From: Bacteroidota bacterium
Lineage (GTDB): Bacteria > Bacteroidota > Bacteroidia > Flavobacteriales_C > GCA-002722245
Length of the DNA stretch: 34,352 nt
Direction of reading: 5' to 3'
NCBI GenBank assembly: GCA_026390935.1
Contig: JAPLEZ010000013.1
Location: forward strand, 24,255 to 58,606
Below the pieces are notes generated by a model. The model did not search any database. It saw only the letters and a list, made by a program, of their open reading frames with translations, and was not told the origin of the DNA. A program made the translations under genes and the position numbers. Below, piece after piece: positions 3,313-25,304 of the stretch; the first letter of the stretch is position 1; each line of letters starts with the position of its first letter.

Positions 3313-3520
3313 GAGCGATTACTTTAATACAGTAGTTAGTTACTATTGCTATAGACTTTAATTTTTGAAATAGGTTGCTTTGCAATTGGTTGCTTTGCTG
3401 CGTATTTGTATAGCAGCGCAATTGATAATTGCAGTGGAAGAGCTTTGATGAAAGTAGGGTTGCCCCTATAATGTGTTGTGTTTTACAATGAAAAGAAAGA
3501 CATAAGTCTTCTATTTCATG

Positions 3521-5009: not shown

Positions 5010-5030
5010 GTTGTGTTGATGTCCTCACCG

Positions 5031-5100
5031 CTGCGCGAAGTTTAGCGATAGCGTAACTTTGCGAAACTACGCGTTTACGTGGAAGTTTTCAACTTCCTTT
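5031..5100. repeat. Repeat family A, copy 1
   Basis: About 70 bp, shared with 6617-6686, 12377-12446 and 15823-15893 and in part with 15201-15250. On the plus strand it reads GAAGTTTAGCGATAGCG, then TTTGCGAAACTACG, then TTTACG and ends in the hairpin GGAAGTT-TTC-AACTTCC plus a T run. Nested complementarities (GTTT/AAAC and CGTAA/TTACG in the better copies) suggest a long imperfect hairpin. The last base overlaps the stop codon of the ORF6N gene. Confidence 0.8.
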
Positions 5101-5621
5101 TATCCATTGCTGCTTTTGTACCCAATTCTTTTTCTTGTTTTTTGTTCAACATCCTGTTTGTCTTTTTGAATTAAATAATTGATGGCTTCATAAACATCTT
5201 TAAATTGTTTGTTGTATTGCTTTTCCAATTCACCTAATTTATGGGCTAAATCTTTATAATTAATTGCATATTGGCGAATGTGCACAAAGGTGCGCATGAT
5301 ACTAATATTTACGTTAATCGCTTTATCTGAATTTAAAATCCCGCTTAGCATAGCAACACCTTGTTCGGTGAAAGCAAAAGGCAGGTATTTAGGTTGTTTT
5401 CCTCTCCCCATTTTTAAGGTCACAATTTGTGACCTTAAAACATTCCATTCCTTCTGAGTGAGCTCAAACATAAAGTCTTTCGGGAATCTTTTAATATTCC
5501 TTTTTACTGCTTGTTTTAATGCTTTAGTTTCTGTTTCATAAAGTTCTGCCAAATCAAAATCAAGCATAATTTTGAATCCACGAACTTCATAGATTTTGTG
5601 CTGAATTACTTGTGATTCCAT
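5100..5621 (-). CDS. ORF6N domain-containing protein
   Basis: 173 residues. The N-terminal two thirds match the ORF6N (KilA-N-related) domain: IYEVRGFKIMLDFDLAELY (residues 11-29), then KRFPKDFMFELT (about 44-55) and YLPFAFTEQGVAMLSGIL (about 78-95). The domain occurs in phage and accessory-genome proteins and is thought to bind DNA. The C-terminal third is a predicted coiled coil (LAHKLGELEKQYNKQF onward) with a basic tail. Such genes are frequent as isolated accessory genes in Bacteroidota. The stop codon abuts repeat A copy 1, and a repeat-rich non-coding stretch of over 500 bp precedes the start. Confidence 0.88.
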   Translation of the reverse strand: MESQVIQHKIYEVRGFKIMLDFDLAELYETETKALKQAVKRNIKRFPKDFMFELTQKEWNVLRSQIVTLKMGRGKQPKYLPFAFTEQGVAMLSGILNSDKAINVNISIMRTFVHIRQYAINYKDLAHKLGELEKQYNKQFKDVYEAINYLIQKDKQDVEQKTRKRIGYKSSNG

Positions 5622-5879
5622 AATAGTTTAGTTAAGAAAGAGAGGGTTCTCCGTTTTGTTTAGTTGGTCCAAAAATAAGAAGGAGAGCTTTAAAGGATTA
5701 AAAAAGTTGTTCAAGGTTTTTAAACAAAATGGAACAAGTAATTTGAATTAGTCGTTCACGTCGTAGCTTCAAATTTTTAATTTGAAGCAAAACTTAAAGC
5801 GATTTTCAATCGCATTTGTGTGATTTGAAGACATGAAAGAAAAAGATTGAGCATCGGTATTAAAAATGCCTGAAAAAAG
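5622..5879. other. Non-coding stretch upstream of the ORF6N gene
   Basis: No convincing gene on either strand. There is AT-rich sequence, the presumed ORF6N promoter region, and a short imperfect inverted repeat near 5765-5815 (TTCAAATTTTTAATTTGAAG, then further copies of the same words). It leads directly into the palindromes at 5880-6180. Confidence 0.5.
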
Positions 5880-5913
5880 AATTTCAGATTTCTCTTCTCT
5901 AAAATCTGAAATT
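5880..5913. repeat. Repeat family B, copy 1 (ATTTCAGATT hairpin)
   Basis: Perfect 12-bp arms AATTTCAGATTT / AAATCTGAAATT around a 10-nt loop, followed by ACATATC. The same arms (10 bp) and the same following word recur at 19959-19996, downstream of the HNH nuclease gene. Confidence 0.75.
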
Positions 5914-5957
5914 ACATATCATTACTGTTTGGAACATAATGAACATCACATCCATAA

Positions 5958-6119
5958 CGTCCTTGCGAAAATTTTGTACTCAAAATTGAAGCAATCTCAT
6001 CGTTGTTTAAGAATTGAAATCATCCGTTTTTTCTCATTTCGATAGTTTTCTTATAAAAAATAATAGCTTATCGTGAATGAGATTGCTTCAATTTTGAGTA
6101 CAAAATTTTCGCAAGGACG
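5958..6119. repeat. Perfect 43-bp inverted repeat with 76-bp spacer (MITE-like)
   Basis: Arms 5958-6000 and 6077-6119 are exact reverse complements over 43 bp. Each arm has the ends CGTCCTTGCGA and GAAGCAATCTCAT, which resemble the widespread CGTCATTGCGA...GAAGCAATCTC interspersed repeat, around an A/T-rich centre (AAAATTTTGTACTCAAAATT). Further out, 5919-5936 pairs with 6142-6159 with three mismatches, so the whole structure spans about 240 bp. No target-site duplication was found. The spacer encodes nothing recognisable. Confidence 0.9.
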
Positions 6120-6157
6120 CACTATATATCGGATACGTAAGGTTTCGAACAGTAATG

Positions 6158-6596: not shown

Positions 6597-6614
6597 GAAG
6601 CTAAAATTCAATCC

Positions 6615-6861
6615 GGCTCGTAAAGTTTAGCGATAGCGAACTTTGCGAAACTACAGCTTTACGTGGAAGTTTTCAACTTCCTTTTTCTGCAAATTTGATA
6701 TTAAGAGGAGAAGCGCAGCTTCGGTCTTCAATATGTTTCTCTTCGAGAAAAGAAGCACAAAGCTTCTAAGTGGATGCGCAAAATCTCCAAGTAATAGGAC
6801 CAAAGCCATTACCTATGGCTTTTCCTCTTAATATCAAATGCTAAACTTGGAGAGGCGGGGT
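6615..6861. mobile_element. Composite repeat A2+C1 with GCCTC...AAGTTTAGC ends
   Basis: Repeat A copy 2 (6617-6686) is joined to repeat C copy 1 (6694-6855). C is bounded by 16-bp perfect inverted repeats TTTGATATTAAGAGGA (6694-6709) and TCCTCTTAATATCAAA (6823-6838). Inside are hairpins GAAGC-GCA-GCTTC, TTTCTC-TTC-GAGAAA and AAAGCCAT-TACCT-ATGGCTTT (6802-6822). TCTCCAAGT (6784-6792) pairs with ACTTGGAGA (6845-6853), outside the R arm, so the stems interleave. The unit's outer ends read GGCTCGTAAAGTTTAGC and, inverted, GCCTCTCCAAGTTTAGC. It fills the gap between two genes. A second copy is at 12376-12655. Confidence 0.75.
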
Positions 6862-12369: not shown

Positions 12370-12375
12370 TTGTTG

Positions 12376-12655
12376 CCTCGTAAAGTTTAGCGATAGCGAA
12401 CTTTGCGAAACTACGGCTTTACGTGGAAGTTTTCAACTTCCTTTTTCTGCAAATTTGATATTAAGAGGAGAAGCGTAGCTTCGGTCTTCAATATGTTTCT
12501 CTTCGAGATTTGATATTAAGAGGAGAAACGCAGTTTCGATCTTCAAGTTGAAAGCTTCTATGAGTGCATTCGCAAAATCTCCAAGTAATAAGACCAAAGC
12601 CATTACCTATGGCTTTCCCTCTTAATATCAAATGCTAAACTTGGAGAGGTGTGGG
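12376..12655. mobile_element. Composite repeat A3+C2, with internal duplication
   Basis: Second copy of the 6615-6861 unit. A3 is 12377-12446. C2 has the left arm TTTGATATTAAGAGGA twice (12454-12469 and 12509-12524), because a segment of about 55 bp is duplicated, and one right arm (12618-12632). The AAAGCCAT/ATGGCTTT hairpin and the TCTCCAAGT/ACTTGGAGA pairing (right strand 12639-12647) are kept. Ends are GCCTCGTAAAGTTTAGC (left) and CCACACCTCTCCAAGTTTAGC inverted (right). The right end is 4 bp from the stop of the DUF6966-like gene. Confidence 0.75.
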
Positions 12656-15200: not shown

Positions 15201-15250
15201 AGGCCTTTGCGAAAATACGGCTTTACTTGGAAGTTTTCAACTTCCTTTTT
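15201..15250. repeat. Repeat family A, copy 4 (left-truncated)
   Basis: Only the right half of repeat A is present: CCTTTGCGAAAATACGGC, TTTACTTGG and the GGAAGTT-TTC-AACTTCC hairpin with its T run. Its right end touches the stop codon of the 186-residue membrane protein gene. Confidence 0.75.
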
Positions 15251-15809
15251 ATGGCAGCAGATAGAATCTCCAACCATTCCAATAATTGTTATAATGGAAA
15301 TAGAATTCTTTAAAATCTGTTGTAGCTGGTAAATTGTTTTTTATTGCAAATTTTTCATATTCTTCCTTGTTTTGGAGTTCTGTTGTTTGTGAAGTTTCGA
15401 GGTTGAAAACAACATATTTATTTTTATCCTGTTCTGCGCATAAATATTCGTCACTAATAGAAAAGTTGTTTATGTGTCTTTGATAAGATGAACCGTCTGG
15501 ATTCTCATAAAAATAGGTGTATACTCCATCTCCGCAATATATGGTTTGTCCGTAACCAACGGGTATACATGAGGAGTCTCCAAGGCCATGATTTCCCCAA
15601 TAAGAAAAAGCGTAGAAAAAAAGTACGATCGAAAAAATTAGACCTGTCAACCACCAAGTTAAAAACTTGCTTTGCATCCATTTTTCAGCAAGCTTTAATT
15701 TTGTTGTCTTACTCAGAATATATAATACGATAAGAACAATCGTTGCATATGCTACCGCAAGTATTGCGATTTTCAAAAGCATAAATATCAAGTGAGCGAT
15801 TGCAAACAT
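15249..15809 (-). CDS. Two-helix membrane protein with exported domain
   Basis: 186 residues. Two helices near the N-terminus (LLKIAILAVAYATIVLIVLY and WWLTGLIFSIVLFFYAF) flank a basic loop. Residues from about 70 form a soluble domain, placed outside by the positive-inside rule, with GDGVYTYFYENPDGSSYQRH and paired Cys (C81 and C92 by count, in SSCIPVGYGQTIYCG) that could form a disulfide. No family is recognised. The gene is bracketed by repeat A copies 4 and 5. Confidence 0.6.
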   Translation of the reverse strand: MFAIAHLIFMLLKIAILAVAYATIVLIVLYILSKTTKLKLAEKWMQSKFLTWWLTGLIFSIVLFFYAFSYWGNHGLGDSSCIPVGYGQTIYCGDGVYTYFYENPDGSSYQRHINNFSISDEYLCAEQDKNKYVVFNLETSQTTELQNKEEYEKFAIKNNLPATTDFKEFYFHYNNYWNGWRFYLLP

Positions 15810-15822
15810 ATTTATTGCTCCG

Positions 15823-15893
15823 CCTCGTAAAGTTTAGCGATAGCGTAACTTTGCGAAAATACGGCTTTACGTGGAAGTTTTCAACTTCCTTTT
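15823..15893. repeat. Repeat family A, copy 5
   Basis: Full-length copy beginning GCCTCGTAAAGTTTAGCGAT and ending with the GGAAGTT-TTC-AACTTCC hairpin and TTTT. The right edge reaches the stop codon of the OmpA-type gene, and the left edge is 13 bp upstream of the start of the next gene. Confidence 0.85.
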
Positions 15894-17131
15894 CAATGCA
15901 TGTAAGTTTTTCTAGCACTTTTAAATCCTTGTGATAGCATGATTGTTGATCTCTTACTGTCAAGTTTGGGAACTCGAACAAAAGAATAGAAGAAACCTTT
16001 TTTTAATGCATTGACAGAGACTGCGTCCGACTTCATGCTTTTTCCGGTTTTTTTGTTGGTCACAAAATAAATTACCTCCAAGTTACTGTCAACGTATGGG
16101 ATTTTAATTTTTATGCTTCTTTTATGGTATTTGGTTGGCCGCCCTTTTAATAACATAGAATTGCATTTATCAAAAACCACTATTGAATCAATTTTATATT
16201 GGAAATTGTTTTTTATTCTAAACCGTGTTGTATAATAGTTATTGAGTTTGTCCATGTTGCATAAGCCCAAACTAGGTGTAAATGTTTGCACTTCATAGTA
16301 CTTTTGATTATTAACGGTTACTATTCGAATTTGTGGATCTCGGGTTTGTTTCCATCCTTTTCCTTCAATATATCTCCAGGTTAGTATGCCAGCGGTGTCG
16401 AAACAAGCAGTGTCACTAATAGGAAATCGAACAATAATTGGTTTTTCAAGCACAGTATCCTTTGAGTTGTAATCTATTTTAAACATTCCTGCGCTGCTTA
16501 GTGGATTGCCATATATATCCTGAGTAGTGAGTCCATTTATTGAGTCTTTTTCAATACTGCAATTTTTGAATTGAAAATGAAAATTTGTGTTCGCTTCCAT
16601 TTTCTTTACTTCTTCTTTTGGGATGATGACTACTGCAGTTTTGTTGTGGATTATGGAATCGCGGTATTCGCGGACTATTAATTTTTTGTTCAGGTTCAAG
16701 CTATCTTTTTCTTTTTGCTCTGCGATAGCGGAAACTATTTTTCCTTTCTTCTTTCCATAAAAAGTTATTTCTACTCGTCTGCTTAGGTTTTTATCTTTTC
16801 CCTTCGAAAATTTTTCGCCATAAGCATTAACATCAAATGGAACAATGAAAGGAATATTTTGAATATGATGCTTTACCATCCGTGCTCTTTTTAGGGAGAG
16901 TCGCATATTTGCATCGGCCGGTCCAGACTCGTCAGCAAAGCCTTTGATGCCAATATAAGTGCTATCCCATTGTTGTTTTCTAAAGCTCTCAACACGCTGA
17001 TTTATTTCGCTTTGTTGTTGTGGAGTCAATTGAACTTGATTTGTTTTAAAATAGATGACTAGTACATCATTTTTTTGCGCTGCCATAAATTGACAGCAAA
17101 GCAGAATGGATATTGAAAGAAATATTTTCAT
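15893..17131 (-). CDS. OmpA-family protein with N-terminal OmpA_C domain
   Basis: 412 residues. A signal peptide (1-18, ending CCQFMAAQ) is followed directly by an OmpA C-like peptidoglycan-binding domain, residues about 22-130: VIYFKTNQVQLTPQQQSEI, GIKGFADESGPADANMRLSL, RARMVKHHIQ and YGEKFSKGKDKNLSRRVEI. These are the usual F-x-x-x...L-x-x-x-R-A-x-x-V and N...R-R-V-E marks. The remaining 280 residues contain beta-strands and a domain with CFDTAGILTWRYIEGKGWKQ, of unknown function. Unusually, the OmpA domain comes first instead of last. It probably tethers the C-terminal part to the periplasmic cell wall. Confidence 0.85.
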   Translation of the reverse strand: MKIFLSISILLCCQFMAAQKNDVLVIYFKTNQVQLTPQQQSEINQRVESFRKQQWDSTYIGIKGFADESGPADANMRLSLKRARMVKHHIQNIPFIVPFDVNAYGEKFSKGKDKNLSRRVEITFYGKKKGKIVSAIAEQKEKDSLNLNKKLIVREYRDSIIHNKTAVVIIPKEEVKKMEANTNFHFQFKNCSIEKDSINGLTTQDIYGNPLSSAGMFKIDYNSKDTVLEKPIIVRFPISDTACFDTAGILTWRYIEGKGWKQTRDPQIRIVTVNNQKYYEVQTFTPSLGLCNMDKLNNYYTTRFRIKNNFQYKIDSIVVFDKCNSMLLKGRPTKYHKRSIKIKIPYVDSNLEVIYFVTNKKTGKSMKSDAVSVNALKKGFFYSFVRVPKLDSKRSTIMLSQGFKSARKTYMH

Positions 17132-20017: not shown

Positions 20018-20665
20018 TTATTTTAATAATGATTTTACAAGTTGTTTTGCGCAAAAAGAATAAGGTTTAGAGTCTGCAGTTTCTCTATCTATTTCTTTCC
20101 TTAGGGCGTTTTTCAAGGATCCAATAGGAGCAATATTATAATTGTCGATAAGAGTTTTAATTGTATTCATTCTTTCTCCACGAGTTTCGAGTAACTCAGG
20201 TCTGTTTAGTTCTATTTCAATTTCAGATATTTTTGCGCGTTGGTCACCTGAATTTGCCCAAACAAAAGCACCAACTGCAGTTAAGTGATTTTGCGGATTG
20301 TCATTATAGGGATCTATGAACGGGTTAGCATTGTCAAAAGTGTCACTCTTGTTCATATTGCACTTTGGACATGAAAGACCAAGATTTGAAAATTCAAATG
20401 TGAGTTGAGGAAATTTGTGTTTGGCTTTTGGTTTTATGTGCTCAATGTGTTCAAATGTGATATGCCCTACCATACTTTCGCAATACATGCACTTGCTTTT
20501 ACTCTCTGCTCTAAGAGCATCTTTAATTTCTTTGGTGTTATAGTTGTTTTCAAGCGACTTTGGAACTTTTTGTCCAGCTCTGATATGTGCTAATAATTGT
20601 GTTGTCCAAGTAGCCTTATTTGAAGATAATGATGCAGGTTCAGTGCCTTTAGTTAATTTAATCAT
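20018..20665 (-). CDS. ptuB: HNH endonuclease of a Septu-type defence pair (PtuB-like)
   Basis: 215 residues. An HNH nuclease with zinc-knuckle cysteines: C59-M-Y-C62, then FEHIEHIKPK (71-80, with H73 and H76), then C99-P-K-C102 followed by N103 and K106. This is the PtuB/TIGR02646-like organisation. In Septu, PtuB is the DNA-cleaving partner of the PtuA ATPase. The start lies 1 bp after the ptuA stop, so the two are translationally coupled. The N-terminus (TKGTEPASLSSNKATWTTQL) is also typical of these HNH partners. No reverse transcriptase lies nearby, so it is not a retron effector here. Function by family and context; activity not proven. Confidence 0.82.
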   Translation of the reverse strand: MIKLTKGTEPASLSSNKATWTTQLLAHIRAGQKVPKSLENNYNTKEIKDALRAESKSKCMYCESMVGHITFEHIEHIKPKAKHKFPQLTFEFSNLGLSCPKCNMNKSDTFDNANPFIDPYNDNPQNHLTAVGAFVWANSGDQRAKISEIEIELNRPELLETRGERMNTIKTLIDNYNIAPIGSLKNALRKEIDRETADSKPYSFCAKQLVKSLLK

Positions 20666-20666
20666 A

Positions 20667-21881
20667 CTATTTTTTCAGAGTGTCTTTAATTGCTAATGGC
20701 ATTAAATCTTCAAGACCAACTTCTTTTAATTCTTTTCTCATTTGGTCAAATAGATTTTCATTCATTTCTTGTCCTGAATGTTTTTTTACAATTTCATTTA
20801 AGGTATTTTCAACCCATATTGGCATCGTAAATGAAACACCTAATACTTCGTTTAAAATTTCAGTAGCATTTTTTGCCTTATTTTCTAAATCAAGCAACTC
20901 ACTTTCTATTTTTTTGTTTTCATTGTATCGCAATGCATAAACATTGGAGTTCTTTACAGAACCAATAATTAAAGGACTATGTGTAGAAACAATAAATTGA
21001 ACATTTGGAAAAGCAGAAATTAAATCTGGAAGTATGGCTCTTTGCATTGTTGCGTGTAGATGATTTTCAATCTCATCAATTAAAATGGTAAATTGATCCT
21101 TTTCTTGAGTGCTGTACATATAGATTTGCCAGCTTAAATCAATCAAAGCACTTATGCCTCCTGAACATCCATCAAGCATATATTCTCCACTGCTTGTCAC
21201 CATAACAATTTCAGATTTTCTTGCCGAGAATTTTTCAAAACCTAATGTCTTTGGTAAAATCTTTTTTAGCACTTTTTGAAATCCTTCATAGTACTCCATA
21301 TATTCCTTGTCTGCTTCCATTTCTGGGTTTCCATATCCAAAAATATTCCAAGTAAGAAGTGTTTCTTTAATATAATAACTACTTGGTCTATCACCACCAC
21401 CAACTATTCTGTTTTTTGAACTATTAGAAACTAATTGAAATGCTTGGGTCTTGTCTCGTTTTTGTAAAGCTAATTGAGTGACGGCTTGATAATGAAATGT
21501 TGGTCTATGAGAAGGGATGTAAAATCCTTTAACGGCTTGTCTTGGTTGAATCTCTATTTGATATTGAGCTGAATCGCTATTAGGAATTTTAATATTCGCC
21601 AGTGAACCTTGATTATAAGTCAACTGTCCTATTTTATTGTCATTATTTTCAATCGGCTTAGTAAAGAATCTTGTGAAGAATTTTATAAATCCTGATTTTT
21701 CATCTTTTGCCGGCGTTGCAAGTTCAATAGTTGACCAACCGAAATGAGGAGAAAGTAAATTTAAAATGGTTGTTTTACCTGCGCCATTAGCCCCAGTCAA
21801 AACAGTTAACTGGTCATGAAAGTCAATATCGAGTTTTTCGAATTGTTTCCATTGGCCTATTGTCAATTTTTTAAATCTCAT
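20667..21881 (-). CDS. ptuA: AAA/ABC-type ATPase of a Septu-type defence pair (PtuA-like)
   Basis: 404 residues. Overlapping-family ATPase: Walker A GANGAGKT (30-37), ABC-type signature CSGG (239-242), Walker B FTILIDEIE (264-272) and an H-loop STHSPL (299-304). The insertion between Walker A and the signature (about 45-235) lacks an evident coiled coil, so it is not a RecF/SMC repair protein. The ATP-sensing subunit of a PtuA/PtuB complex fits the size and the following HNH gene. Its stop lies 1 bp from the ptuB start. It sits between the accessory region and the gatCAB-aspS operon, whose stop is 102 bp from the ptuA start. Confidence 0.82.
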   Translation of the reverse strand: MRFKKLTIGQWKQFEKLDIDFHDQLTVLTGANGAGKTTILNLLSPHFGWSTIELATPAKDEKSGFIKFFTRFFTKPIENNDNKIGQLTYNQGSLANIKIPNSDSAQYQIEIQPRQAVKGFYIPSHRPTFHYQAVTQLALQKRDKTQAFQLVSNSSKNRIVGGGDRPSSYYIKETLLTWNIFGYGNPEMEADKEYMEYYEGFQKVLKKILPKTLGFEKFSARKSEIVMVTSSGEYMLDGCSGGISALIDLSWQIYMYSTQEKDQFTILIDEIENHLHATMQRAILPDLISAFPNVQFIVSTHSPLIIGSVKNSNVYALRYNENKKIESELLDLENKAKNATEILNEVLGVSFTMPIWVENTLNEIVKKHSGQEMNENLFDQMRKELKEVGLEDLMPLAIKDTLKK

Positions 21882-21983: not shown

Positions 21984-24900
21984 TCATATCACCCTCACAT
22001 TCATCTCCTCCACCTTCTTACTCGGCAAAGCACTCGGACTATTAAACATCAAATCTTCACCAGAACCAGTTTTAGGATAAGCCATCACTTCACGAATAGA
22101 AACCTTCCGTTCCAATATCATCATCAAACGATCCAATCCCCATGCAATTCCACCGTGTGGTGGAGCGCCGAACTGAAACGCTTCGTACATGTGTCCAACG
22201 CTTTTTTTCATTTCGTCTTTGTTGTAGCCCATGTTGCGGTAAGTAGCTTCCAAGATTTCGGATTTGTGCGCGCGCACTGATCCACCGCCGATTTCGTAAC
22301 CGTTTAAAACCAAATCGTATTGTTGCGCGATGATGTCGCCAACTTTTTCGCCGCTCATGTGTTTGTCGAGATCTTTCACTTTAGGCATAGAGAAAGGGTT
22401 GTGCGTGAACGTCCATCTTCCTTCGTCGGTTTTTTCGAAGAAAGGAAAATCAACTACCCATACCGGTGCCAATTCTTTTGGATTGATGAGGTTGAGCATT
22501 CTTCCTAATTCCTGACGCACCTGATCCAGCGCTTTGTTCGCGGTGGCATAAGATGCCGCAGAGAAGAAAACAATGTCTCCTACCTTAGCTTTTGTTGTTT
22601 TGATGATGTTGGCTGCAATTTCTTCACCGAGGAATTTAATGATAGGCGATTGCAAATCGTTTTCGTTAACGATGATGTAAGCCAATCCTCCCAAACCATT
22701 TTCCTGCGCGAGAGCAGTTAATTTTTCTATCTGACCTTTTGATAATCTTTTGTTTTGATACTCGGCATTCACCTTGATGCATTTCACCACGCCGCCTTCT
22801 TCAATAGGTTTGGAGAACACCTGGAAAGTGGTGTCTTTCACGATGTCGGTGATGGTTTGCAATTCCAAGCCATAACGCATATCGGGTCTGTCGCAACCGT
22901 ATTTTTCCATGGAATCCCAGTACTTAATCACTTGAAATGGTTTCATTTTCCATTTGTCTTTGTACAAATCCTGCACAACGGTAGTGAGTAATTTTGTGTT
23001 GAGATCCATGATGTCCTGTTCGCCGAGGAAAGCCATTTCCATATCGAGCTGCGTGAACTCAGGCTGACGATCGCCACGTGAATCTTCATCGCGGAAACAT
23101 CTTGCTACCTGAAAATATTTTTGGAATCCACCTACCATCAACAATTGCTTGAACTGTTGCGGCGCTTGTGGAAGCGTGTAAAACGAACCTGCAAATTTTC
23201 TGCTTGGCACAATAAATTCACGAGCACCTTCTTCGGTACCTGCAGTTAAAATTGGTGTTTCCACTTCAATGAATTCTTCTAGGTCGAGAACATCCCGCAA
23301 CAACTTAATCACCTTGTGACGATTGATGATTGCCGAGCGATTTTCAACGCTTCTGTGATCCAGGAATTTATATTTTAATCGTGTTGCTTCATTGGTTTTT
23401 GCTGCGCGCTTAATTTCGAAAGGAAGAGTTTTTGCTAAGTTCAAAATATCGATTTCCTTAACTTCCATTTCCAGTTTTCCTGTACGGATACTGGAGTTGT
23501 AATCGTCTTCACCACGCGGAATAATATTTCCAGTTACCATGATCACCGATTCCGGTTTCAACTTCGCAAACTGATCCAGTTGAGGGAAAGTTTCGCGTTT
23601 CAAACTCAACTGCAAAACTTCGTAGCTCGAGTCGCGGAAGTCGATAAACACTAAGTCGCCGTGGTCTCTTAAACTAGACACCCAACCAGAGAGAGTGACG
23701 GAGTGTGAGAGTGAGTCTTGAGTGATTTGGGAGATAACATGCGTACGATATTGGTCTTTGATGATCACCGGAATTGCGCGAACCGCTTCTTCGTCATCGC
23801 GTTGTTGCGCTGCAGAAATTTTCTTTTCGCCATTTTCCTCTTCATCACCCTCGCTCTCACTCTTCGTGGCTGCTCCAGCTAATTGCTGGAGTATGATTTC
23901 GCGAATTAATTTTCCGTTTGCTCCTTTACCAACTTTAGCTAAAACTTTACCTACTAAAATTCCTGATTTTCCAGCGTTGCCACCTTTGATTTCAGCTGCC
24001 AGTTCAGCGTTTTCGGCAATGGCTTCAGCAATGCTTTTTTGCAGCGTATCGTCGGAAATAGTATTGTCGGCAAAATATTTTTTGTAATCGAAAGAAGAAC
24101 TTTTAATCAATTCTTCCAATGCTTTCTGCAATAAAATAATCGTGATTTTTTCTTCCTTGAACAAAGAGAAAATTTCTACCAGAACTTCTAATTTTATTTT
24201 AGGATAATCTTCTGCTTTTAAGTTATTCGATAATGCTTTCGCAACGAACAAAGGATCATTTAATTTTTCGTTGATGCCTAAAAACAATTGTGAGCGAATG
24301 GCATCGGCAGTGAAAAATTTTGCATCCTGCGGACGAACACCGCCCTGAATCAATGTAGTTTCAATAGAGTAGGGAAGGAGGCGCTGATCCACTTTTGTAG
24401 CGTCAACTTCTTTTTTGATGTTCACGAAAGGAATGTCAGGCTCCAAAGCAAAACGGTAATCGGCTGCGAATTCTTTTTTACGCATCGTTTTCGTTTTCTT
24501 CAAATCGGCGTCAAACAAAACTGTGGTTTGGTCGGCACGGAAATCGTTGTGCTGCGTGTAAAAATCGAGTTGCTTTGTTACTTCTTCCTCCAAGGCCTCA
24601 ATCATGAATTTGAAAGAGTTGAGGTTTTTAATTTCGGTTCGTGCGTTCAAATCGTTCGTTCCTTTTTTGCGGATGGATACGCTCACGTCGGATTTGAATT
24701 CTCCTTTCTCCAAGTTCGCTTCGGAGATATTTAAATTTTGTACAATGCGTTGTAAGTATTGTGCGTAGATGGATGCATCGTTCATTTCGCGCAAACAAGG
24801 CTTCGTCACTACTTCAATCAATGGCACTCCCGATTTATTGAAGTCAACTAAAGTCTGCGTTTTTTCGTGCATCAATTTCGCCGCATCTTCCTCTAAATGC

Positions 24901-25304
24901 ACTTGTTCCAATTGAACTGAAAAGCTCGTTCCATCTTCTCTGTAGCAATACACTTCACCGTTGGGAATAATTGGTTTTTGAAATTGCGTCAACTGGAAAT
25001 TCTTAGGTTGATCGGGATATTCGTAATGTTTACGGTCCCAGCAAATCACTTCATTTTTGAAATCAGAATTCACTGCTTTCCCAAACAAAATCGCTTTGCG
25101 AATGGCTTCTTTGTTGATGGCAGGAAGCACACCCATTTGTCCGGTGCACACTGAACAAATATTAGTATTTGGTTCGTTGGTTTCCTGATTGGCGCAGGCG
25201 CAAAATAATTTGGTTTTGGTGTTGAGGCGGATGTGGGTTTCTAATCCAATCACCACTTCTAATCCAAGCTGATCCAGCTTTTGCGTGAGTTTATCTATTT
25301 CCAT
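21984..25304 (-). CDS. GatB-AspRS fusion: amidotransferase subunit B joined to aspartyl-tRNA synthetase
   Basis: 1106 residues in one frame. Residues 1-477 are a complete GatB: ETHIRLNTKTKLFC start, four cysteines C35, C37, C50, C53 (zinc-site subset), HLEEDAAKL, then the helical tail domain ending KLIREIILQQLAG. Residues 478-515 are an acidic linker rich in E, D, S. From about 516 follows a full bacterial-type AspRS: anticodon-binding OB fold (GWVSSLRDHGDLVFIDFRD, about 540-558), class II motif 1 (VETPIL, 681-686), motif 2 (FRDEDSRGDRQPEF, 737-750), GAD insertion (about 810-930) and motif 3 (GLDRL, 1056-1060). Met is absent between 473 and 588, so no separate ATG start for AspRS is visible. 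The gatA stop overlaps its start (TAATG). It should form a covalently linked Asp-tRNA(Asn) transamidosome with GatA and GatC. Confidence 0.95.
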   Translation of the reverse strand: MEIDKLTQKLDQLGLEVVIGLETHIRLNTKTKLFCACANQETNEPNTNICSVCTGQMGVLPAINKEAIRKAILFGKAVNSDFKNEVICWDRKHYEYPDQPKNFQLTQFQKPIIPNGEVYCYREDGTSFSVQLEQVHLEEDAAKLMHEKTQTLVDFNKSGVPLIEVVTKPCLREMNDASIYAQYLQRIVQNLNISEANLEKGEFKSDVSVSIRKKGTNDLNARTEIKNLNSFKFMIEALEEEVTKQLDFYTQHNDFRADQTTVLFDADLKKTKTMRKKEFAADYRFALEPDIPFVNIKKEVDATKVDQRLLPYSIETTLIQGGVRPQDAKFFTADAIRSQLFLGINEKLNDPLFVAKALSNNLKAEDYPKIKLEVLVEIFSLFKEEKITIILLQKALEELIKSSSFDYKKYFADNTISDDTLQKSIAEAIAENAELAAEIKGGNAGKSGILVGKVLAKVGKGANGKLIREIILQQLAGAATKSESEGDEEENGEKKISAAQQRDDEEAVRAIPVIIKDQYRTHVISQITQDSLSHSVTLSGWVSSLRDHGDLVFIDFRDSSYEVLQLSLKRETFPQLDQFAKLKPESVIMVTGNIIPRGEDDYNSSIRTGKLEMEVKEIDILNLAKTLPFEIKRAAKTNEATRLKYKFLDHRSVENRSAIINRHKVIKLLRDVLDLEEFIEVETPILTAGTEEGAREFIVPSRKFAGSFYTLPQAPQQFKQLLMVGGFQKYFQVARCFRDEDSRGDRQPEFTQLDMEMAFLGEQDIMDLNTKLLTTVVQDLYKDKWKMKPFQVIKYWDSMEKYGCDRPDMRYGLELQTITDIVKDTTFQVFSKPIEEGGVVKCIKVNAEYQNKRLSKGQIEKLTALAQENGLGGLAYIIVNENDLQSPIIKFLGEEIAANIIKTTKAKVGDIVFFSAASYATANKALDQVRQELGRMLNLINPKELAPVWVVDFPFFEKTDEGRWTFTHNPFSMPKVKDLDKHMSGEKVGDIIAQQYDLVLNGYEIGGGSVRAHKSEILEATYRNMGYNKDEMKKSVGHMYEAFQFGAPPHGGIAWGLDRLMMILERKVSIREVMAYPKTGSGEDLMFNSPSALPSKKVEEMNVRVI

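Follow-up and report, generated by a model that had tools for sequence, protein, structure and literature searches.

The two composite repeats in the 34,352-nucleotide stretch of Bacteroidota DNA analysed here (the window) are, very probably, non-autonomous REPIN/BIME-like elements of a REP-associated tyrosine transposase (RAYT; TnpA-Y1 subclass 2.6, or RAYT group 5) which is encoded elsewhere in the genome. Both units keep the arm design seen on either side of the RAYT gene, but where the gene would stand they have a short, variable core. A smaller, genus-restricted hairpin module, here called M, is nested in the core and, in inverted orientation, in the loop of a terminal hairpin. An initial annotation of the window had proposed a non-autonomous mobile element, a structured RNA, or both. 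The first of these proposals is upheld by the many copies found and by the occurrence of the same arms around a RAYT gene in the same genome, while the second, in so far as it implied a conserved pseudoknot, is not supported, for the reasons given below.

Arms, cores and genomic distribution

Both units were found where they had first been placed, at approximately 6614-6859 and 12375-12651. Their parts, together with the solo arms of the window, are as follows.

6614-6859, no strand: element copy 1, with inverted two-hairpin arms, a core with M and another M lying within the right arm
6615-6690, plus: copy 1 left arm, matched by the arm profile and covariance model
6617-6648, plus: outer hairpin (H1) of the copy 1 left arm, stem CTCGTAAAGTT/AACTTTGCGA, supported by covariation in 42 distinct arms
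6665-6681, plus: inner hairpin (H2) of the copy 1 left arm, with a T run after it; terminator-like and inward-pointing
6694-6728, plus: copy 1 core module M, TTTGATATTAAGAGG-A-hairpin-GGTCTT
6736-6750, no strand: small core hairpin TTTCTCTTCGAGAAA of copy 1, from sequence and predicted fold
6745-6792, minus: copy 1 right arm, inner part, with the first outer-stem strand TCTCCAAGT at 6784-6792
6793-6839, minus: second M of copy 1, inverted, inside the outer hairpin loop of the right arm, where M-free arms have 5-7 nt
6840-6857, minus: copy 1 right arm, outer part, comprising TTTAGC and the second strand ACTTGGAGA, then a GAGGC end
12375-12651, no strand: element copy 2, built alike but with two core Ms
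12375-12449, plus: copy 2 left arm, matched by the arm profile and covariance model
12454-12488, plus: copy 2 core M, first
12509-12543, plus: copy 2 core M, second; an M-free version of its context was found
12545-12586, minus: copy 2 right arm, inner part
12587-12633, minus: copy 2 M, inverted, in the outer hairpin loop
12634-12651, minus: copy 2 right arm, outer part
5029-5101, plus: solo arm abutting the stop codon of an ORF6N-domain gene (5100-5621, minus strand)
15205-15251, plus: solo arm, 5'-truncated, at the 3' end of gene 15249-15809
15821-15893, plus: solo arm at the 3' end of gene 15893-17131

When copies were compared side by side, the arm emerged as a unit of approximately 75 nt (consensus CGCCTCGCnAAGTTTAGCGnAGCGAACTTnGCGAAAT...TACTTAGAAGCTTTCAGCTTCTTTTTTC) containing two hairpins: H1, on the outside, is a stem enclosing an almost invariant loop, TTTAGCGnAGCG, and H2, on the inside, is a stem with a 3-nt loop and a T run after it. 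The right arm is the left arm inverted, and in every pair the two arms point towards each other, H1 being outermost; the H2 equivalent in the right arm of copy 1 (6751-6767) has an altered loop. Cores of approximately 20-95 nt, belonging to several unrelated types, lie between the arms, and in RAYT units the gene takes their place. The terminal inverted repeats originally read as GCCTC...AAGTTTAGC are thus real ends, but only the tips of these much longer inverted arms.

Both arm stems are maintained, as pairing and double changes in the 42 distinct arms exceed those in shuffled controls: standard pairs fill 97.5% of stem cells (87.6% shuffled), double changes number 76 (21.9 shuffled), and pairing falls to 36-58% when the partners are slid against each other. 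The compensating changes which the initial annotation had suggested looking for are therefore present in the arms, although this covariation does not separate DNA from RNA.

The source genome (G000) is a 3.76-Mb MAG in 155 contigs. A search of it with copy 1 returned approximately 40 places in 91 aligned pieces, such that the original count of two copies was an undercount. The arm covariance model yielded 92 matches in this genome and 46, 28, 11 and 2 in four other genomes of the genus, counts which take in the sibling arms of a second RAYT described below, and none in 25 genomes outside the genus. Our table of elements, built from selected genome stretches and genome-wide searches, holds 25 paired elements among the stretches of G000 which were read, all 25 of them outside called ORFs. 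Among the 22 with both neighbours called, 8 lie in convergent, 13 in tandem and one in divergent gaps, these ORF calls being mechanical. The pair of minus-strand genes noted around each unit holds for both window copies, but is no rule among these 22. Comparison of the window DNA with four same-genus genomes found the flanks of its copies not to be conserved, and thus no orthologous sites. Clean empty sites for arm elements were likewise not found, the sites corresponding to those on contigs C140 and C85 holding other sequence in a second genome, G002.

These settings bear on a further explanation, in which the host retains the elements because they terminate transcription or stabilise mRNA 3' ends, which need not conflict with a mobile origin. 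H2 and its T run account for five predicted terminators in the window, divergent (promoter) gaps are avoided (1 of 22 elements), and solo arms stand directly at stop codons. However, the T run follows H2 in the inward direction only, which for solo arms is the strand opposite the adjacent gene, and avoidance of promoter gaps is to be expected of neutral insertions too. We consider such a host function rather unlikely. The solo arms at stop codons also raised the idea of integron cassettes, which was dropped: only three of approximately 17 genes in a row follow the pattern, and the arms are those of the RAYT family.

A RAYT gene between matching arms

A search of the genome for Y1 transposases returned three genes. 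The first, on contig C135 at 300-845, lies between arms at 213-288 and 905-980, the same arms as those of the window units. Its 181-aa product (P0001) passes both the NCBI RAYT model NF047646 (104.7 bits; cut-off 80) and Pfam Y1_Tnp (30.2 against a cut-off of 23), and its AlphaFold model (mean pLDDT 91) has as its best PDB match 4er8, TnpA-REP bound to a REP hairpin (E 5e-9). By its sequence and surroundings, this gene is the likely autonomous parent of the window units. The second, C106:3071-3616, is 71% identical to it and has its own sibling arm pair, and the RAYT gene unit is present as a single copy per arm type. The third, C118:675-1340, was rejected as parent, scoring 69.3 against the RAYT cut-off of 80 and showing no arms upon either arm search or reading of its flanks. 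A supposed RAYT remnant within the window (3402-3455) was also dropped, the one frame translated there containing no RAYT sequence.

The passages on subclass 2.6, or RAYT group 5, in PMC6006769 describe proteins of Bacteroidetes of approximately 179 aa, with motifs NH[LIV]H, WQ and YIH[QN]NP and a long HuH-Tyr spacing, near 82. P0001 fits this description in length, in spacing (81) and in its motifs NHVH, WQ and YIHDNP, the last of which is one residue off the Q or N of the consensus; its sibling P0002 reads YIHNNP. The same passages ascribe to the flanks of this subclass 'atypical secondary structures', of which further copies lie at other places in the genome. The flanks seen here resolve into inverted two-hairpin arms with covariation. 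What those passages term atypical thereby becomes a defined object, with a parent gene and tens of copies that lack a transposase, and recognition and mobility are therefore testable in vitro.

The identity of the gene also bears on whether the units could be ordinary MITEs derived from an insertion sequence with a DDE transposase. Such elements would likewise be small, numerous and bounded by terminal inverted repeats, but the gene between the matching arms is a Y1/HUH transposase and not a DDE enzyme, and the arms are covarying hairpins, leaving this origin extremely improbable.

We compared the two 150-bp flanks of each of 34 RAYT loci, drawn from several genera including this one, with those of 28 control ORFs from the window. 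Inverted-repeat flanks which beat all 200 shuffles were found at 21 of the 34 RAYT loci and at none of the 28 controls. The RAYT flanks held 92 hairpins, against 17.3 in shuffles, and at least two hairpins on both sides occurred at 10 of 34 RAYT loci, 0.0 in shuffles and one of 28 control ORFs. The flanks of control ORFs exceed shuffles as well (33 hairpins against 13.4), because the genome is hairpin-rich. From these counts, two-hairpin arms seem to be common around the RAYTs of these genera, with arm sequences that differ.

A clear unpaired GT[AG]G foot, as in canonical REPs, is not evident in the arms, which are not classed as canonical REPs here. The H1 foot reads CGC[CT]. At the foot of H2, 38 of 42 arms read [GT]T[AG]G, including 18 with the strict form GT[AG]G, but the last two of these bases are paired in the stem. 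These foot bases and the would-be 3' cleavage dinucleotide change together (AG/CT 25, GG/CC 13, TG/CA 1), which is not evidence by itself since stem pairing alone gives the same result. The H2 foot is a candidate cleavage signal as a lead only, and a foot of this type was not found in the inner hairpins of the RAYTs of other genera.

If the window units are indeed mobilised by this RAYT, the arms would fold into single-stranded DNA hairpins during replication, and the HUH/Y1 enzyme would recognise and cut them. The RAYT may then copy or move the arm-core-arm unit in trans into intergenic gaps, mostly beside 3' ends. The folding, cutting and joining in trans are drawn from the biochemistry of TnpA-REP (PMC8266576).

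At the locus of the parent gene (C135 213-2282, L034), the RAYT unit comes first and two arm-core-arm elements come after it, set apart by small genes. The flank beside the outermost of these elements appears, in G002, to adjoin a RAYT arm directly, which suggests a rearrangement. One same-genus genome contains a RAYT fragment that is 96% identical. The ORF6N-domain gene of the window (5100-5621, minus strand) has a 73%-identical copy in genome G003, a few hundred bases from a RAYT fragment (C19:21999-22304 and 22503-23066).

The nested module M and the apparent pseudoknot

Built as listed above, M is 35-43 bases long. Arms free of M read CTCCAAGTTTAGCGCAGCGAACTTGGAG, whereas the window copies read CTCCAAGTTTAGCA, then M, then ATTACTTGGAG. 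Exact copies of an M 15-mer number 20 in G000, 12 in G002, five in G001, two in G003 and 10 in G004, with none in 55 further genomes, and the full motif occurs in five of 395 genomes of the class, all within this genus. Pairing in the M hairpin exceeds that of shuffles (96.4% against 88.6%), as do double changes (25 against 9.1), though part of the other control measures were not separable from shuffles.

M occupies arms, element cores and several unrelated palindromic repeats of the genus. Relative to M-free contexts, which were found for many copies, it replaces mostly 5-7 nt and sometimes an entire hairpin of approximately 20 nt. At one orthologous intergenic site, the arms contain M in G000 and lack it in G002; in G004 this site holds different sequence with an M-like stretch. 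The nesting of M, its M-free contexts and the orthologous site together identify it as an independent inserted module. That it is a mobile hairpin with a preference for the loops of other hairpins is inferred more weakly.

How M spreads admits of two accounts. Firstly, M may be a free-standing, gene-less mobile DNA hairpin which has exchanged repeatedly into loops within palindromic repeats of unrelated families, through the action in trans of a single-strand HUH/Y1 transposase that targets a folded hairpin and not a linear sequence; we regard this as possible, but doubtful. Secondly, template switching or gene conversion from one hairpin to another may have spread it, without a single-strand transposase, a prospect that we place only a little short of even. 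The latter would suit the replacement of loop sequence by M instead of its plain addition, the failure of our searches to find an enzyme linked to M and the fact that M copy number does not track RAYT number. However, M lies in several repeat families with little common flank, which leaves scant material for homologous exchange. Should its movement be confirmed, M would rank with the smallest of mobile sequences. A possible occurrence in viruses was rejected as chance, the sole exact 19-mer match preceding an ATG and having no M hairpin.

The nesting of M inside hairpin loops is the notable part of these elements, and the apparent RNA pseudoknot is its by-product. The pairings first reported for copy 1 are all present: the 22-nt arms at 6693-6714 and 6818-6839 are 95% complementary, the stem TCTCCAAGT/ACTTGGAGA (6784-6792/6845-6853) interleaves with them, and the central hairpin AAAGCCAT/ATGGCTTT lies at 6802-6822. 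The duplicated inner segment of copy 2 is likewise real, being the second M at 12509-12543. The interleaving arises because two inverted Ms pair with one another while one of them lies inside the loop of another stem. It is not conserved, since the outer hairpin of most elements is free of M and in two further double-M copies both modules share one orientation: the C122 element, and that at C135:11699, where a partial left M and the core M agree. The covarying stems are those of the arm hairpins and of the M hairpin, and do not include the long M-M helix.

A structured non-coding or regulatory RNA with the pseudoknot as its functional fold can be weighed on the same grounds. Its predicted folds are very stable (RNA of copy 1, from either strand, folds more stably than each of 200 shuffled sequences; z -6.5 and -5.7) and its stems covary, which is equally expected of DNA and RNA. 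Against this, the interleaving is limited to two closely related copies, no Rfam match at or above the gathering score was found in the window, and copies of this near-palindromic element occur in all gene contexts and in both orientations. We thus hold a functional RNA fold to be highly improbable. Nested insertion, as proposed for M, can build an apparent pseudoknot without selection on RNA.

Two further repeats fill a single gap of the window. That at 5957-6123 belongs to a separate family of inverted palindromic repeats (GCGAAAATTTTGTACTCAAAATTGAAGC), which has many copies in the four related genomes and some members of which, elsewhere, contain M. That at 5762-5915 is hairpin-rich (TTCAAATTTTTAATTTGAA, GCGATTTTCAATCGC) and has many matches in related genomes.

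Related systems and other genes of the window

BOX elements of Streptococcus pneumoniae are modular, with an end-core-end layout and inner modules that vary in number. The present elements resemble them in layout, but have ends that are linked to a RAYT gene, and M occurs outside the element as well. The REPINs and BIMEs of gammaproteobacterial RAYT (TnpA-REP) systems (PMC3116915, PMC2817692) similarly consist of extragenic palindromes paired in inverted orientation and present many times over, and the genome contains a cognate single-strand Y1 transposase gene which is flanked by the same inverted palindromes. Unlike these, the elements described here have two hairpins per half (approximately 75 nt) rather than one 20-40-nt palindrome, show no clear unpaired GT[AG]G foot, and have variable cores which may contain M. 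Insertion sequences that target REP palindromes, such as ISPpu9 and IS1397-like elements (PMC1525189), resemble M as mobile-type units inserted into palindromic repeats. M differs in being 35-43 nt long, gene-less and itself a hairpin, and in occupying the loops of several unrelated repeat families.

Two other loci in the window merit mention. An ORF of 1106 aa (21984-25304, minus strand) has a GatB-like N-terminal part (Asp/Glu amidotransferase subunit B) and a C-terminal part which reads as an aspartyl-tRNA synthetase, an apparent gene fusion as judged by its translation. At 20018-21881 (minus strand), a gene for an HNH endonuclease protein adjoins an AAA ATPase gene (AAA_15/AAA_21), a pair reminiscent of two-gene ATPase-HNH defence systems.
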